DNA from: a virus
Length of the DNA stretch: 27,643 nt
IMG/VR virus record: IMGVR_UViG_3300049203_000074
Span: 1 to 27,643 of that record
Direction: 5' to 3' (one strand)
The stretch's first letter is position 1. The number at the start of each line of letters is the position of its first letter. A program made the translations under genes and the position numbers. This document shows positions 7,415 to 21,826 of the stretch, piece by piece. Below the pieces are notes generated by a model. It worked only from the letters and a program-made list of their open reading frames with translations, had not been told where the DNA came from and ran no database searches.

Positions 7415-8040
7415 CAGAACTCTGTCGCCTCGAGATAGCCCAGAGCGGTCTTGTCGTCCCGAGCGCTTAGCAACTGTGATAGAGCCAGCGCTTCTGCTGC
7501 TTGCATGATGACCGCGTTGGCCGAGTCATTGTAGCGGTGGGCGTACAGCTCGGCCTTGGCTCGGCTCATGATGAGTTCGTACGCCTCCGTCATCCATACA
7601 TTGTCGGTCTCGCCGTCGCTGGTCGGTGCTGCGACCTTGGTGTGACCGAGGATGCGGGTCGAATAGGCGTCATCTGGATTGCGCCAGAGGCGTATGCCCC
7701 CTGGTACGGATGCATAGTCGCTTGGCTCACCTGTGTCGGCGTTGTTCCCGGCGACACGCTCCATCTGCTGGTAATTGAGGCGGTCGAGTTCCCGCACGTC
7801 GCCTGCTGCGATGGTCACGAACACGCCGTCGATCTTATAGAACTCCGTCCCGATGGTCGTGAACAGGTAGGTGTCCGTTGATGCTACGGTGTTGAACGTC
7901 ACACTCCGGCTCTCGTTGAACCAGAAGCGCTTGGGCTGGTAGTGCCGGATCGCTGCGTTGATCTTGTTCGTGAACGCTGCGGAGTCAGAGCGCTCCATAT
8001 CGTCGGCCATTTCAGCAAGCATGATGGCGCGTGTCGTCAT
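7414..8040 (-). CDS. Head-to-tail adaptor (SU10/P22 gp4-type)
   Basis: A 208-aa protein with the layout of phage adaptor proteins: an N-terminal helical block (IMLAEMADDMERSDSAAF then INAAIRHYQPKRFWFNES), a central beta domain with an FYKIDGVFVTI segment, a Pro/Gly loop (YASVPGGIRLWRNPDDAY), and a long C-terminal helix (LIMSRAKAELYAHRYND onward). Adaptors bind beneath the portal dodecamer and join it to the tail. The ATG overlaps the stop of a 47-aa gene by four bases, and the stop overlaps the hub gene by one. Position between the coat-region genes and the hub supports the call. Confidence 0.78.
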   Translation of the reverse strand: MTTRAIMLAEMADDMERSDSAAFTNKINAAIRHYQPKRFWFNESRSVTFNTVASTDTYLFTTIGTEFYKIDGVFVTIAAGDVRELDRLNYQQMERVAGNNADTGEPSDYASVPGGIRLWRNPDDAYSTRILGHTKVAAPTSDGETDNVWMTEAYELIMSRAKAELYAHRYNDSANAVIMQAAEALALSQLLSARDDKTALGYLEATEF

Positions 8041-8180
8041 TTAGCCCTCGCTCGCTTGGTCCGTACCGCCTTCTTGCCGAGACGCTTAAGCGTCTCAGCG
8101 GGCTTGTCCGCCGGTTTCGGCAAAGTCTCGGGCGGCAGGTCGTATCCCGCCGCCCAGAGGTGCGTGATGGTAAGGTCCAT
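8037..8180 (-). CDS. 47-aa basic small protein of the head-tail region
   Basis: This short gene fills the gap between the decoration-like gene and the adaptor. ATG at 8180 begins MDLTITHLWAAGYDLPPETL; it continues through a Pro/Lys-rich middle (PKPADKPAETLK) to a strongly basic end (KKAVRTKRARAK). Its TGA overlaps the adaptor ATG by four bases, the junction style used throughout this operon, and the start lies four bases past the preceding stop. The basic tail could contact DNA or acidic capsid surfaces, but that is a guess. Codon third positions are G/C-biased. No family is recognised. Confidence 0.65.
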   Translation of the reverse strand: MDLTITHLWAAGYDLPPETLPKPADKPAETLKRLGKKAVRTKRARAK

Positions 8181-8183
8181 TGC

Positions 8184-8666
8184 TTAGCTGAAGGCCGCCG
8201 CAGCGGTCGAAAGCACCACGCCGGACACGATCCAGTACGTGCCGTCGCAGTACATCTCGATCACGGTCCCGCCCTGCGGCAGGTTCACCTGGAGCTGGTC
8301 GTCGTCGGACTGGTCGGCAACGACGGCAGCAGCCGTGGCGGGGGCCGCGTCGGTGTCGATCATGAGCACGCCGCCCTTGAACAGGTCGGCAGTCGCAGCG
8401 GCGACGAAGATCCAGTCGTGACCGTCCGCAGCGCCGACTTCCGCAACGAACTTGTACCGCAGGCCAGCAGCCACGGCGGGCAGCGTGAAGGTGCGATCCG
8501 CCGACACGTTGGCGATGAGGTGCGTCTTGCCGCTGTTGGTGGCAAGGATCGTGGCGTTGGCATCGCCCAGCGAGACAATGCCGGGCGTGTCATAGAGAGT
8601 GCCGACCTTAAGGGTTCCAACTTCGACATCGGAGTCCTTGTAGAGGTCGTGCTTGCCAGTGGTCAT
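8184..8666 (-). CDS. Head decoration / small structural protein
   Basis: A 160-aa protein with an Ala/Val/Thr-rich beta composition. Residues ~40-100 read like a fibre or decoration fold (TFTLPAVAAGLRYKFVAEVG, HDWIFVAAATADLFKGG), and the last ~30 residues (GGTVIEMYCDGTYWIVSGV) resemble the final strands of many small phage surface proteins that cover a hydrophobic core. An AAGGAGA ribosome-binding site stands just before the ATG. A hairpin (8687-8710) separates it from the gene before it. It lies in the coat region, so a high-copy capsid accessory protein is likely, though unproven. Confidence 0.65.
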   Translation of the reverse strand: MTTGKHDLYKDSDVEVGTLKVGTLYDTPGIVSLGDANATILATNSGKTHLIANVSADRTFTLPAVAAGLRYKFVAEVGAADGHDWIFVAAATADLFKGGVLMIDTDAAPATAAAVVADQSDDDQLQVNLPQGGTVIEMYCDGTYWIVSGVVLSTAAAAFS

Positions 8667-8686
8667 GTGAGTTCTCCTTGGGAAAG

Positions 8687-8710
8687 GAGGCGGGCCATTA
8701 CACCCGCCTC
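8687..8710 (-). terminator. Hairpin between two capsid-region genes
   Basis: GAGGCGGG and CCCGCCTC form a perfect 8-bp inverted repeat around an 8-base loop, directly after the stop of the 137-aa gene and before the ribosome-binding site of the next. On the minus strand only a weak pyrimidine run (CTTTCCC) follows, so it is at best a leaky terminator. It could also be an RNA-stability hairpin protecting the abundant capsid message. Confidence 0.45.
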
Positions 8711-8717
8711 ACATGCC

Positions 8718-9131
8718 TTACTGGTCGTTGTCGCAGACGTAGGTGACGATGATCTCGGCAACGCCAGCCGAGACGGCGCCAGAACCGTCATTGAGCGTGA
8801 CGGTTACGGTCGCGTCCTCGGTCTGCATGATGTTGGTCGTCGCAGCCAGTTCATCGAGCGCTTTGAAGCCAACAGCCGTTGCGACCAGCGCGGTCGCGTA
8901 GGCGTTGGGATCAGCGGTCGAATTGCCGTCCTTGAAACCAATATCAATGGTCGAGGTGTCATCGAAGGCGGTCGTGATCATCGCACCGCCACCGATGACG
9001 ACGGCGTTGGCGGGCAGGTAGCCCACCGTCACCTCATCGCCCTCGTCAGCGAACGTGATGCGCTTGCGCAGGTAGTGCACGAGCTGCTTCTGATAGTCGC
9101 GAGCAGTCGTGCCAGCGGTGTTGGTAGCCAT
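8718..9131 (-). CDS. Small capsid-associated protein after the major capsid gene
   Basis: A 137-aa protein that starts MATNTAGTTARDYQKQLVHY and then becomes beta-rich (VTVGYLPANAVVIGGGAMIT, STIDIGFKDGN, ATVTVTLNDGSG), ending AEIIVTYVCDNDQ. This matches the general form of small head proteins encoded just after N4-gp56-type coat genes. A strong AAGGAGGG ribosome-binding site, partly inside the stop region of the coat gene, implies high expression. A cement or decoration role is inferred; a head-completion role is the alternative. Confidence 0.68.
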   Translation of the reverse strand: MATNTAGTTARDYQKQLVHYLRKRITFADEGDEVTVGYLPANAVVIGGGAMITTAFDDTSTIDIGFKDGNSTADPNAYATALVATAVGFKALDELAATTNIMQTEDATVTVTLNDGSGAVSAGVAEIIVTYVCDNDQ

Positions 9132-9143
9132 TTGCTGCCCTCC

Positions 9144-10259
9144 TTACGAAGTGTGGGCCGCGGCATAGGAAGACACGACAACCGTGCCGAAGTCGGCGCT
9201 GTTGAACTGGGTCTTCTTCATGCCGAAGATGGACATGACGCTCACCTCGAGCTTGCGCTTGTGGTCGAGCAGTTCCTCGTTCCAGGAGTAGTCGGTCTCG
9301 CCGCCATCCTTGGAGGTCGCCATCGCACAAGCCTGCGCACCGAGCAGAACAGCGCGGCGCGTATTGGCAACCGAGGTCGTCGGAGTGCCGGAGTTGGCGC
9401 CCAGAGTGACGTGGTTGGCCTTCTTGAGGATGACGTTGTTGTGCTCGCCAAGAGCGTCCGTGTAGATCGGGTTCTTGGAAGCATTCCCGTTGGCGAGAGC
9501 GGCCTTCTGGATATCCAGCCACTGACCCGTCGAGGTATTCGTGCGAAGGTCGGTCACCTGGTAGGGATGCAGGTACATCACGTACTTGCCGCCCGAGATG
9601 TCCCGGCCATCGTCGTAGCCTTCGACGTTGATCGGCCGCACCGGGTTCGACGCGGTTTCCGCAACTTCGCGGGCAACGTCCACCATGCGCAGCGTGAACA
9701 CGTCATCGCTGCCGAGGTTTTCGTCACCGTCGGAGTTGTTGTTGCCGGCGTCCACCCAGACCTGGCGGCCCGAGGAAGGAGCGATGATCGCGTTGTTGCC
9801 ACGGTACTTCGCCCGCGTCTCCGGCGTGTAGCCGCAGACGTGGTTGAAGAAGATCGTGCTCAGGCGCTTGCTCCACCACGCGCGAAGGCCCATGCGGGCT
9901 GCGTCGCGGAGGTTGAACGGAACGCGCTGGTCATCGATCGAGCGCCCCTTGTTTGGGATGCCCACGACGTGGCCAAGCTCGTTGATGAGGATCGCGTCGG
10001 CATAGATCGACAGCGACTCGCCATTACCCTCGGCAATTTCACTTTCGGTGAAACCGTCGCCGGTCAGTTCGGTCATGAGGGAGAAGGTCACCTGGTCGCC
10101 GGCAGACTTGGAGGTCTCCGACTTGAGGTGGATGATGGAATTCGCGGACTCGCCAATGAGCGACGAAATATCGGTTCGATAGACAATCTGGAAACCGAGA
10201 CGCTTCGCCCACAGCTTGACCGCATTGGTGTCGTTGACACCAAAGGTGGTCGTGGCCAT
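9144..10259 (-). CDS. Major capsid protein, N4-gp56 family
   Basis: A 371-aa protein with features typical of the N4-gp56 coat family (HK97 fold): an N-terminal MATTTFGVNDTNAVKLWAKR segment, the early GDQVTFSLM strand, a loop with GESLSIYADAILINELGH, the central LRDAARMGLRAWWSKRLS spine-helix region, a SGGKYVMYLHPYQVTDL P-domain segment, and a C-terminal SWNEELLDHKRKLEVSV stretch. Length is within the family's normal range. It follows the scaffold gene after a 178-base leader with repeats, and a CAGGAG ribosome-binding site precedes the ATG. It forms the icosahedral shell. This is one of the most secure calls in the window. Confidence 0.9.
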   Translation of the reverse strand: MATTTFGVNDTNAVKLWAKRLGFQIVYRTDISSLIGESANSIIHLKSETSKSAGDQVTFSLMTELTGDGFTESEIAEGNGESLSIYADAILINELGHVVGIPNKGRSIDDQRVPFNLRDAARMGLRAWWSKRLSTIFFNHVCGYTPETRAKYRGNNAIIAPSSGRQVWVDAGNNNSDGDENLGSDDVFTLRMVDVAREVAETASNPVRPINVEGYDDGRDISGGKYVMYLHPYQVTDLRTNTSTGQWLDIQKAALANGNASKNPIYTDALGEHNNVILKKANHVTLGANSGTPTTSVANTRRAVLLGAQACAMATSKDGGETDYSWNEELLDHKRKLEVSVMSIFGMKKTQFNSADFGTVVVSSYAAAHTS

Positions 10260-10437
10260 TTCTGGCTCCTGTGCTGATGATGTTGGGGGTGATGCGCCGT
10301 GCGTTAACGCCCGCTAGGCTTGGCGAAGCATCGGTATCGGGTGATGCGCCCGTAGTGAGTTGCCGGTCTTACGGTCCCGGCGTCCGAAGCATCGCTAGCC
10401 GCCATGCGTAGGCTTCAGAGTGGCTGACTTGGCAGGA
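10260..10437 (-). promoter_or_regulatory. Coat-gene leader with paired repeats
   Basis: This 178-base non-coding stretch separates the scaffold and coat genes in an operon that otherwise has almost no spacers. It holds two copies of a two-part unit: GGGTGATGCGCC at 10287-10298 and 10339-10350, and CGAAGCATC at 10324-10332 and 10385-10393 (plus-strand spelling). A 5-bp stem GCCGG/CCGGC lies within the second unit. No T-rich tract or clear -35/-10 pair was seen. It probably sets coat expression relative to the scaffold through a promoter, processing site or RNA structure. Confidence 0.5.
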
Positions 10438-19766: not shown

Positions 19767-20257
19767 GCCGCTTCCTTCCATTTGTGGGCTTCGCGCTCGC
19801 TGGGCGTGCCTACGCCGACGGAAAGCGCGTGGTGATATTCGCAGTACGGGCCATGAGCCGCCGCGCCGCAGAACAGATGCGGGCGGTCCTCGCTGACTGG
19901 CCACTTGCACATGCCGGGCTCAAGGTCGATCAGCGGGACCGGCGACGAACCAGGCAATGGCGCCCAAGCGTCACCGCGCATGAACCGCGTGTCGCCGGGC
20001 AGAGAGATGGGCAGCAACGGTCGCGGCCTGCGCTTGATGGTCTCTGGCGCGCGTTCCTTACGGGGCCTGAAGCGCGGCTGGACCTTGTTGTCGCGCATCT
20101 GCAAACCGAGCCGCCGCACGCGGCCAATGACAGCGTTGCGCGTGATGCCCATGATGAACGCGATGTCGCCGGATGATAGGCCCTCTTCATCCCACATGCG
20201 GCGCAGCTCGGCGGTGTTCGTCTCGTTCCACCGCGTGAATTGGCCCTTGAGCATCAT
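19763..20257 (-). CDS. GcrA-family transcription regulator
   Basis: A 164-aa protein. The N-terminal domain (WNETNTAELRRMWDEEGLSS, then IAFIMGITRNAVIGRVRRLG) is the GcrA HTH, including the hallmark N-A-V-I-G-R-V-x-R-L-x-L. The C-terminal part (GMCKWPVSEDRPHLFCGAAA, YCEYHH) is the sigma70-contacting C-W-P ... F-C-G ... Y-C-x-x-H segment. Cellular GcrA binds promoters carrying GANTC methylated by CcrM and recruits RNA polymerase, setting cell-cycle genes. Phage copies could redirect this to phage promoters or disturb the host cycle. ATG 20257 follows GAAGGCGG and overlaps the previous stop (ATGA). Confidence 0.88.
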   Translation of the reverse strand: MMLKGQFTRWNETNTAELRRMWDEEGLSSGDIAFIMGITRNAVIGRVRRLGLQMRDNKVQPRFRPRKERAPETIKRRPRPLLPISLPGDTRFMRGDAWAPLPGSSPVPLIDLEPGMCKWPVSEDRPHLFCGAAAHGPYCEYHHALSVGVGTPSEREAHKWKEAA

Positions 20258-20448
20258 GCCGCCTTCTCCCAAATGAACATGGACACGGGAGGCATATGCG
20301 CGATGTTGGCCTTGATGCGCTCGACGCGGCATTTGCGCCCAAACTCGCGTAACGCGATCTGCTCCGGCGTCCGCGCGTCCTTTGGGACGATCAGCGGGAC
20401 GTGATGATACCAGGGCTGGAATGTCGGCTCAGCGTCGGTCGTTTTCAT
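20254..20448 (-). CDS. 64-aa protein, unknown function
   Basis: From ATG 20448 (MKTTDAEPTFQPWYHHVPLI), with GAAGGGG as ribosome-binding site. The middle is VPKDARTPEQIALREFGRKC, a basic helix follows (RVERIKANIAH), and the end is MPPVSMFIWEKAA. It overlaps its neighbours by four bases on both sides, so it is part of the nuclease-to-GcrA stretch. No family is recognised; the basic helix could contact nucleic acid. Confidence 0.65.
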   Translation of the reverse strand: MKTTDAEPTFQPWYHHVPLIVPKDARTPEQIALREFGRKCRVERIKANIAHMPPVSMFIWEKAA

Positions 20449-20756
20449 TGGCGCCCCTTCAAAACATCGATGAAGTCGGATACTCTCAGGACAACGAGAG
20501 CGGCGTTCCGGTCGGAGCGAATGAACAGCCCCCGGTGAGCGCCAAGCCACTCGTAAATTTGCTTGAAGCCGTCGGCGCGAACCTTGCTCTCGAAGCGCCA
20601 GTCCTGCCCCATGACGGGAACGGTGAGGTCGCCGGCAAACGAACCGCCAGCGGCGCCCGACAGCGGGATGCGCTCGGCGGCAATGCCAGCGTCCTGAAAC
20701 TGGTTCACCAACCCGCGTTCCTCACGAGCGCCCTTGTCTCGAGACTTCTTACCCAC
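20445..20756 (-). CDS. Hjc-like PD-(D/E)XK nuclease (Holliday junction resolvase type)
   Basis: A 103-aa protein with the Hjc order of motifs: KGAREERGLVNQFQDAG (first acidic residue and helix), AERIPLSGAAGGSFAGDLTV (catalytic Asp of GDL), and WRFESKVRADGFKQIYEWL (E-S-K active-site motif). Such enzymes resolve four-way junctions made during phage replication and recombination. The start is taken as GTG 20756 because GGGGAG lies seven bases upstream; GTG 20771 would add five residues. It follows the methyltransferase gene after a 42-base gap and leads into the regulator genes. Confidence 0.8.
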   Translation of the reverse strand: MGKKSRDKGAREERGLVNQFQDAGIAAERIPLSGAAGGSFAGDLTVPVMGQDWRFESKVRADGFKQIYEWLGAHRGLFIRSDRNAALVVLRVSDFIDVLKGRQ

Positions 20757-20798
20757 GGGGCTCTCCCCCACTGTCTTGGTTGTGTATGGACATGGGGG

Positions 20799-21629
20799 TT
20801 ATGCCGCCTCCAGGCTTTGGAGGATGGCGTTGCCGATCAGTTCGGGGATTTGCGGGACGACCGCGTTGCCTAGTCGTCCAATTCGGTGTGCCCTGTGGGG
20901 AACCCCATTAGCCACTCGACCCACGGCGGGTTCAGAGCCCCATTGTTCCGCTCCAACCGTTGCATGAACTCGCTCAAGTTGACGCCGCGTGACGAGGACG
21001 CCGCCCGCTTGTCCACCGTCTCCAGCCTCATTGACGATCTGTAGTCGCGCGCTGTCGGAGTTGGGAACATCGCTACTCTCGTTGCCAGTCCATCCCCGCT
21101 GGTCGCCGAAGCCCCCTTGCGGTTGTAGTTTCCGTTCACCGTGGGAGTGGGCCACAATCCAGATGCGGTCTCGTCTGTGAGGGGCACCAACGGCGGAAGC
21201 TGGAATGCAATGCCACTCCGCATCAAACCCGAGCGAGGCCAAGTCTCCGAGAACTCTGCCCAACCCTCTAGCAAGGAGCGCTGCGACGTTCTCCACGAGG
21301 ACGAAGCGGGGTCGAAGCTCGCCAACAAGACGGGCGTATTCTGACCACAGACCGGACCTGGCTCCGTCCAAACCCGCTCCCAGCCCTGCGAGGCTGATGT
21401 CCTGACAGGGAAATCCTCCGCAGATAACATCAACTGGTCCGACACTTTCGCCTCGCAATGTGGTAACGTCTTCGAAGCACGGGACATCGGGCCAATGCTT
21501 CGCCAGAACCCGCCGGCAGAACGGATCGATCTCGCAGAACGCCACTGTCTCAAACCCGCCCGTGCGCTCGAGCCCCAAGCTGAAGCCGCCAATGCCCGAG
21601 AAAAGGTCAAGGACTTTGAGCTTGCTCAT
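20799..21629 (-). CDS. DNA cytosine-5 methyltransferase (Dcm type)
   Basis: A 276-aa protein with every core motif in order: I, DLFSGIGGFSLGLE (residues 8-21); IV, GGFPCQDIS with catalytic Cys75; VI, ENV at 112-114; VIII, HRRDRIWIVA; a short target-recognition region (about 180-235); and X, GRLGNAVVPQIPELIG. It transfers methyl groups from S-adenosylmethionine to carbon 5 of cytosine, most likely to protect phage DNA from restriction. No partner restriction enzyme is visible, so it is an orphan enzyme; the recognition site cannot be read from sequence. AAGGAGGGTGAGGGG precedes ATG 21629. A second long open frame lies inside it. Confidence 0.93.
   Translation of the reverse strand: MSKLKVLDLFSGIGGFSLGLERTGGFETVAFCEIDPFCRRVLAKHWPDVPCFEDVTTLRGESVGPVDVICGGFPCQDISLAGLGAGLDGARSGLWSEYARLVGELRPRFVLVENVAALLARGLGRVLGDLASLGFDAEWHCIPASAVGAPHRRDRIWIVAHSHGERKLQPQGGFGDQRGWTGNESSDVPNSDSARLQIVNEAGDGGQAGGVLVTRRQLERVHATVGAEQWGSEPAVGRVANGVPHRAHRIGRLGNAVVPQIPELIGNAILQSLEAA
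20870..21430 (-). CDS. Overlapping +1-frame reading frame inside the methyltransferase gene
   Basis: In the frame one base downstream of the methyltransferase frame, DNA is stop-free from 21610 to 20870. From an internal ATG at 21430 it would give 186 residues. The translation contains SSWRTSQRSLLEGWAEFSET, WPRSGLMRSGIAFQLPPLVP, GLWPTPTVNGN, FPTPTARDY and GALNPPWVEWLMGFPTGHTE. I recognise this style, especially the WPRSG and NPxWVEWLMGFP segments, from C-terminal parts of proteins annotated in phages as methyltransferase-related. It could be a true overlapping gene, a frameshift extension, or a by-product of conserved methyltransferase codons. The ribosome-binding site is weak (CGGAC). Confidence 0.42.
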   Translation of the reverse strand: MLSAEDFPVRTSASQGWERVWTEPGPVCGQNTPVLLASFDPASSSWRTSQRSLLEGWAEFSETWPRSGLMRSGIAFQLPPLVPLTDETASGLWPTPTVNGNYNRKGASATSGDGLATRVAMFPTPTARDYRSSMRLETVDKRAASSSRGVNLSEFMQRLERNNGALNPPWVEWLMGFPTGHTELDD

Positions 21630-21826
21630 CCCCTCACCCTCCTTGCCTGAGTGAAGTATTCCTCTGTCTCTGCCTTGCGCTGCTCGAATGGGATGGTCGC
21701 GTTGTACACAGCCAGTTGCAGCATCACGTCCGTGCGGCGGCGCTGTGCGGCCATGCTCTCCTGGCGAGTGGCGACGACATAACGGGTTGCGGGTTCGGGC
21801 TTTTGCCAGGGCCAATGGAAGTTCAT
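21626..21826 (-). CDS. 66-aa protein, unknown function
   Basis: MNFHWPWQKPEPATRYVVAT at the start, then a basic/polar helical stretch (RQESMAAQRRRTDVMLQLAV) and YNATIPFEQRKAETEEYFTQ to the end. It overlaps the methyltransferase ATG by four bases and starts on an ATGA overlap with the gene before. No domain is recognised; the short Trp/Pro-rich beginning and Gln/Arg-rich helix suggest a small interaction protein. Expression as part of the operon is well supported by the junctions. Confidence 0.65.
   Translation of the reverse strand: MNFHWPWQKPEPATRYVVATRQESMAAQRRRTDVMLQLAVYNATIPFEQRKAETEEYFTQARRVRG

Follow-up and report, generated by a model that had tools for sequence, protein, structure and literature searches.

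The window and its frame-0 methyltransferase gene

The window, that is, the whole stretch of DNA analysed, was a 27.6-kb virus record (27,643 nt, IMGVR_UViG_3300049203_000074). It contained tailed-phage head genes (portal and major head protein) and an early module encoding a replication initiation protein, a RusA-like resolvase and an HNH endonuclease. The gene under study was located on the minus strand at 20799..21629, with its ATG at 21629 and its stop at 20799; all features of the locus described below lie on the same strand. It encodes a predicted cytosine-5 DNA methyltransferase large subunit of 276 aa, here called alpha, which matched PF00145 (4e-42), phrog_363 (2e-83) and TIGR00675 (1e-35). 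A strong Shine-Dalgarno sequence, AAGGAGG, was read from the sequence at 21638..21644, 8 nt before the ATG. Two short overlapping ORFs lie beside the gene on the minus strand, one at 20254-20550 with no match and one at 20445-20771 matching RusA-like resolvases (phrog_244). Elsewhere in the window, a 748-aa ORF (8031-10277, plus strand) lies opposite the major head protein gene, which occupies 9144-10259 on the minus strand; this may be an effect of composition.

The motifs of PF00145 C5-methyltransferases were found in alpha at I, IV (PCQ), VI (ENV) and VIII (RxR). Motif I (LDLFSGIGGFSLG; 21573..21611), which binds the cofactor, was invariant or nearly so in alignments A2 and A4. Motif IV (GGFPCQD; 21399..21419) carries the catalytic Cys75, and both C75 and Q76 were invariant in A4, as were E113 and N114 of motif VI (ENV; 21285..21293) and R153, R155 and W157 of the motif VIII region (APHRRDRIW; 21159..21185). 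A single-chain C5-methyltransferase carries the TRD and motif IX in the same polypeptide; motif IX was absent from alpha, and a TRD is probably absent as well. The usual TRD position is occupied by a linker (20940..21137) that was little conserved and disordered in the structure model, with pairwise identity of 0.10-0.21 at residues 166-225; the same bases form the putative TRD region of the second reading frame described below. Motif X (RIGRLGNAVVPQIPELIG) follows at 20832..20885, where frame 0 resumes directly after motif IX. The preliminary description had all core motifs intact in the main frame, which was correct for motifs I, IV, VI, VIII and X; motif IX was absent from that frame and was found in +1.

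Structure prediction pointed the same way. The AlphaFold model of alpha, built on an alignment that left out one row from an annotated phage record, had a mean pLDDT of 77.6 and was confident at residues 1-165 and about 250-276; pLDDT was below 50 at 175-212, indicating disorder, and confidence stayed low up to about 245. Foldseek searches with this model returned M.HhaI and M.HaeIII as top matches over about 165 columns, with an E value of 9e-16 for the M.HhaI-like large domain. In sequence, alpha aligned to M.HhaI residues 12-179 (motifs I-VIII) and then to 295-315 (motif X, a segment not significant by itself), skipping the TRD and motif IX. The confidently modelled part of alpha is thus a large catalytic domain with no small domain, and a disordered gap lies where the TRD and motif IX are expected.

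Selection on the +1 frame

As the preliminary description had stated, the +1 frame is open inside the alpha gene from 20870 to 21610 (741 nt, 246 aa counted from a TTG). The strings quoted from its translation, GLWPTPT among them, were present, and the bases that read VGRVANGVP in the enzyme frame do spell VEWLMGFP in the other. Three explanations had been offered for this frame: a dual-coded gene pair, a frameshift-extended form of the enzyme, and a codon-bias echo of conserved motifs.

Alternative frames tend to stay open at high GC content, and some frame-shifted similarity comes with every conserved protein. The open +1 frame might accordingly be an untranslated by-product of GC-rich codon use and conserved methyltransferase motifs; the window alone spoke against this only at p of about 0.01, its longest +1 run being 753 nt against 413 nt expected after synonymous shuffling, which preserves the protein and its codon usage. 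Related genes decided the matter. Across 79 viral methyltransferase loci collected using the methyltransferase frame only, the mean longest +1 open run was 733 nt compared with 357 nt in shuffled sequences, and stops in the +2 frame were not depleted (14.0 versus 13.3). No +1 stop was found at methyltransferase residues 91-240 in 71 related viral genes, where about 195 were expected from the synonymous shuffle and about 115 from a stricter null in which the following base was also fixed. The stricter null gave the same picture for genes of 40-52% GC, with 0 stops against 43.6 expected. In a 72-gene alignment, +1 stops were common up to residue 60, fewer at 61-90, absent from 91 to 240 and present again after about 250. 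Neither the flanks of residues 91-240 nor 95 neighbouring control genes from the same loci (292 versus 284 nt) showed a +1 effect; the shuffle nulls ignore the kinship of the sequences, a feature that the flanks and the control genes share. With no stops seen where about 195 or about 115 were predicted, genes of 40-52% GC included, and no effect in the +2 frame or in the control genes, the codon-bias echo was ruled out and retains practically no probability. Homologues with a +1 frame broken by stops, which the preliminary description had named as evidence against dual coding, did not occur among the 71 genes over residues 91-240.

Constraint was found in both frames. Conservation of +1 residues in the core blocks lay 27-60 z units above shuffled sequences, values that are not to be read as probabilities since the sequences are related, and synonymous change in frame 0 was suppressed in the same blocks. 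Changes altering both proteins were scarce in ten closer pairs (7 observed, compared with 36 when replacements at these sites were random). Purifying selection acts on both frames, as defines an overprinted gene. The second protein, here called beta, is almost certainly a real, selected coding sequence, and stop depletion together with selection in both frames strongly supports a dual-coded gene pair.

Extent and probable start of the beta gene

The coding part of the +1 frame is likely to be 20870-21445 and not all 741 nt. This putative nested gene would start at a GTG and encode about 191 aa comprising the TRD region and motif IX. A candidate Shine-Dalgarno sequence, GAGG, was located at 21451..21454, 5 nt before the GTG. 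The start was picked from this GAGG-5nt-GTG arrangement and from an N-terminus (M-S-D/E-Q...) common to five other loci (L089, L090, L093, L098 and L112): read from the GTG at 21445, window beta begins MSDQLMLSAEDFPVRTS, like the ATG starts picked independently in those five. The quality of the GTG and its GAGG as a start is moderate.

The profile phrog_1008 matched window beta at 7e-33. The preliminary description had likened the quoted strings to tails of phage methyltransferase-related proteins; they belong to a real protein tail, and the resemblance is not a mere likeness. Searches of Pfam and NCBIfam with beta gave nothing meaningful. Its N-terminal block (LLASFDPASSSWRTSQRSLLEGWAEFSETWPRSGLMRSG...; 21158..21334) is overprinted on alpha motifs VI-VIII; conservation here was 38-57 z units above shuffled sequences, and the same-codon probability was 0.65-0.69 against about 0.3-0.4. 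This block resembled no known domain and matched no Pfam family. Downstream lie a first WPTPT unit (21140..21157), whose T100 and P101 were nearly invariant in alignment A1, and a second unit, FPTPTARD (21041..21067), with P128 and T129 nearly invariant in the same alignment. Betas had 0-4 units of the WPTPT type, most often 2. Motif IX (LNPPWVEWLMGFPTGHT; 20885..20935) is the +1 reading over alpha EPAVGRVANGVPHRA.

Programmed frameshifting offers another way to use the +1 frame. A ribosome slipping from alpha into +1 would fuse the alpha N-terminus to the TRD and motif IX, with no separately started beta; this would agree with a +1 frame that, in the window, opens shortly after the start of alpha, and with phages Samy and Bora, in which genes in frames 0 and +1 lie next to each other. 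Starts preceded by a Shine-Dalgarno sequence were, however, enriched in the +1 frame across 72 loci (at least 6 nt in 26%, compared with 9% in shuffled sequences, z 4.9), sitting just upstream of the stop-free interval, and the other two frames of these loci showed no such enrichment. In four loci (L092, L100, L105 and L131) a +1 stop immediately precedes a start with a 5-nt Shine-Dalgarno sequence, stops upstream of the start region were not depleted, and the predicted beta N-termini agreed across lineages; the fusion product would, moreover, have no motif X. About 15% of the 72 loci had no start with a Shine-Dalgarno sequence of at least 4 nt at the tested spacing. Since Shine-Dalgarno-preceded starts are enriched in +1 only, +1 stops lie before starts and the beta N-termini match, the frameshift-extended enzyme of the preliminary description is disfavoured and improbable, and beta is probably translated by internal initiation, as judged from these sequence signals.

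Division of motifs IX and X between the frames

Motif IX (LNPPWVEWLMGFP) was recognised by its model in the +1 frame of all 72 genes and in the alpha frame of none. The reverse was found with a motif X model, which matched alpha in all 72 and the +1 frame in none. Motif IX in +1 ends on the base where frame-0 motif X starts. This placement of motifs by frame means that the canonical DNA order I-VIII / TRD / IX / X is kept and that only the predicted TRD-IX portion is read in +1. At the TRD position itself the alpha segment is unconserved and disordered, and the conserved units are in the beta segment. When the beta profile was compared with the PDB, the only matches were to a plant DRM methyltransferase, at its motif IX (LEPDEVEMLLGFP), and taken alone they are weak (E 1.8). 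We consider it very likely that alpha and beta are subunits of one enzyme, in which beta supplies the TRD and motif IX.

AlphaFold modelled beta alone poorly (pLDDT 58.5, too low for a fold search), so the model provides no fold confirming a TRD; such poor folding in isolation might be compatible with a partial domain.

Co-occurrence of the two genes and shifts of the frame boundary

Loci were also retrieved by beta alone. Alpha was present in the -1 frame relative to beta in 80/80 viral and 80/80 bacterial loci, and no free-standing beta was found among these 160. Homologues encoded without an overlapping methyltransferase, which the preliminary description had proposed looking for, were thus not encountered in this set.

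Motif IX was in +1 and motif X in frame 0 in 205 of 222 distinct loci. Both motifs were in frame 0 in four actinophage loci (ReT1v-2, Philonius, MelBins and Phasih) and both were in +1 in three others (Bora, Samy and a Spirochaetia MAG), which together make up the loci with another frame boundary (L001, L004, L005, L007, L195, L249 and L253); the remaining exceptions were contig ends, frameshifted or unresolved. In most classified exceptions the two motifs shared a frame, which is what the division of a single enzyme at different points would produce. With IX in the alpha frame in the four actinophage loci, the +1 ORF need not always bear this motif. The LPTP units of Philonius lie first in +1 and further on in frame 0.

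A beta with a separate function, anti-restriction or regulatory, would also be a real protein in an overlapping frame and would merely resemble motif IX. The N-terminal block with no Pfam match and the lack of a confident fold for beta alone fit such a protein. Motif IX, however, sits exactly where alpha has none and adjoins motif X in the DNA, IX and X remain together in most loci with other layouts, and no beta was found without alpha, all of which make a separate function quite improbable.

Proposed two-subunit enzyme and comparison with known systems

Alpha and beta are very probably the two subunits of a DNA cytosine-5 methyltransferase, encoded in overlapping frames of a single DNA stretch. 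The analysis shows selection in both frames, the placement of motifs by frame, co-occurrence in all loci examined and a confident alpha fold with no small domain. In the proposed scheme, frame 0 would give alpha, with AdoMet binding, the catalytic PCQ cysteine, the ENV and RxR motifs and the C-terminal motif X helix. The internal GTG at 21445, with its own GAGG Shine-Dalgarno sequence, would give beta of about 191 aa, consisting of the overprinted N-terminal block, the variable WPTPT region in the place of the TRD, whose role it may play, and motif IX, which would anchor the small domain. Beta would bind alpha to assemble one active enzyme, and this enzyme would methylate the phage DNA, most likely as protection against host restriction.

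M.HhaI and M.HaeIII share with the window the large-domain fold of alpha and the DNA order I-VIII, TRD, IX, X, but each is one polypeptide, and its TRD and motif IX share a reading frame. M.EcoHK31I, the nearest precedent, reportedly consists of two polypeptides (alpha, about 309 aa, and beta, about 176 aa), the gene for beta lying within that for alpha in another frame; the window locus has such an overlap too. PMC3404938, citing Lee, Kam and Shaw 1995, assigns motifs I-VIII and X of this enzyme (YGGCCR) to the large polypeptide and motif IX alone to the small one, and places the predicted TRD in the large subunit. The window resembles this described layout in having I-VIII and X in the large subunit and motif IX in a small polypeptide. 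It differs in being phage-encoded and in that the alpha segment is a disordered, little conserved linker, the conserved units being in beta. Judged by layout and not by sequence homology, the window pair would be of the M.EcoHK31I type in every feature compared except, perhaps, the position of the TRD. What is new relative to the M.EcoHK31I kind is the phage-wide extent and the moving frame boundaries.

M.AquI is an active C5-methyltransferase made of two polypeptides divided near the TRD, the small subunit bearing IX and X (PMC3404938). The window pair is likewise a predicted two-polypeptide C5-methyltransferase divided near the TRD, but has motif X in alpha; closer to M.AquI are the loci of Bora and Samy, with IX and X both in +1.

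Extent and annotation of the nested arrangement

Window beta and all 68 aligned betas matched phrog_1008, an entry that is labelled DNA methyltransferase and says nothing of a gene nested in that of another methyltransferase family. Nested C5-methyltransferase pairs of a second, distant branch were found in 155 phage records from Escherichia, Klebsiella, Salmonella, Pseudomonas and Xanthomonas phages, with a motif-IX-like LNPAHSRWLM in +1 (for example L275, 983-1675 within 895-1719; L273, 1093-1746; L274, 1261-1851). Among the inspected records of nested layout, the nested CDS was annotated only in the Escherichia phages K1G and fTaEco01 (GU196277, MT711527), as a +1 'putative Mte8-like protein' lying wholly inside a C5-methyltransferase gene. 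Like window beta, it ends in a motif-IX-like sequence, LNPAHSRWLMGYP; unlike it, it belongs to the more distant sequence branch and is annotated with no stated function. A phmmer search of the PDB with K1G beta returned nothing, and a literature search for nested phage methyltransferase genes found no paper. Within one bacterial class, 274 genomes were sampled and about 3% had a match.

The nested arrangement was found in hundreds of phages and is seldom annotated. We lean towards the view that dual coding throughout marks a large class of C5-methyltransferases in phages and prophages, most of it unannotated, with the catalytic and recognition halves of one enzyme in two frames and a switch point that moved between lineages; either half of the gene would then combine an ancestral frame with a newly overprinted one. 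Annotation pipelines give one methyltransferase here and drop the probable recognition subunit. A single codon-optimised ORF made from such a phage methyltransferase would destroy beta, and a false 'inactive' result could follow. Long same-strand overlapping genes could also be studied cleanly in this family, a natural example in which one enzyme is read from two frames, sequences number in the hundreds and activity is simple to assay.

Some individual copies depart from the common form. Apparent stops inside beta in two loci from the class-wide bacterial search (L267 and L271) proved on inspection to belong to intact nested pairs with shorter beta N-termini. The prophage copy of E. coli PCP07014 (L266, 2501-3262) has stops at the same place in the alpha and beta frames, which indicates a decayed gene, and is a RefSeq pseudogene. 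In Mycobacterium phage Seabastian (L008, 1444-2203), a frameshift divides alpha, which is annotated as two 'DNA methylase' genes, and the beta motifs are in the third frame.
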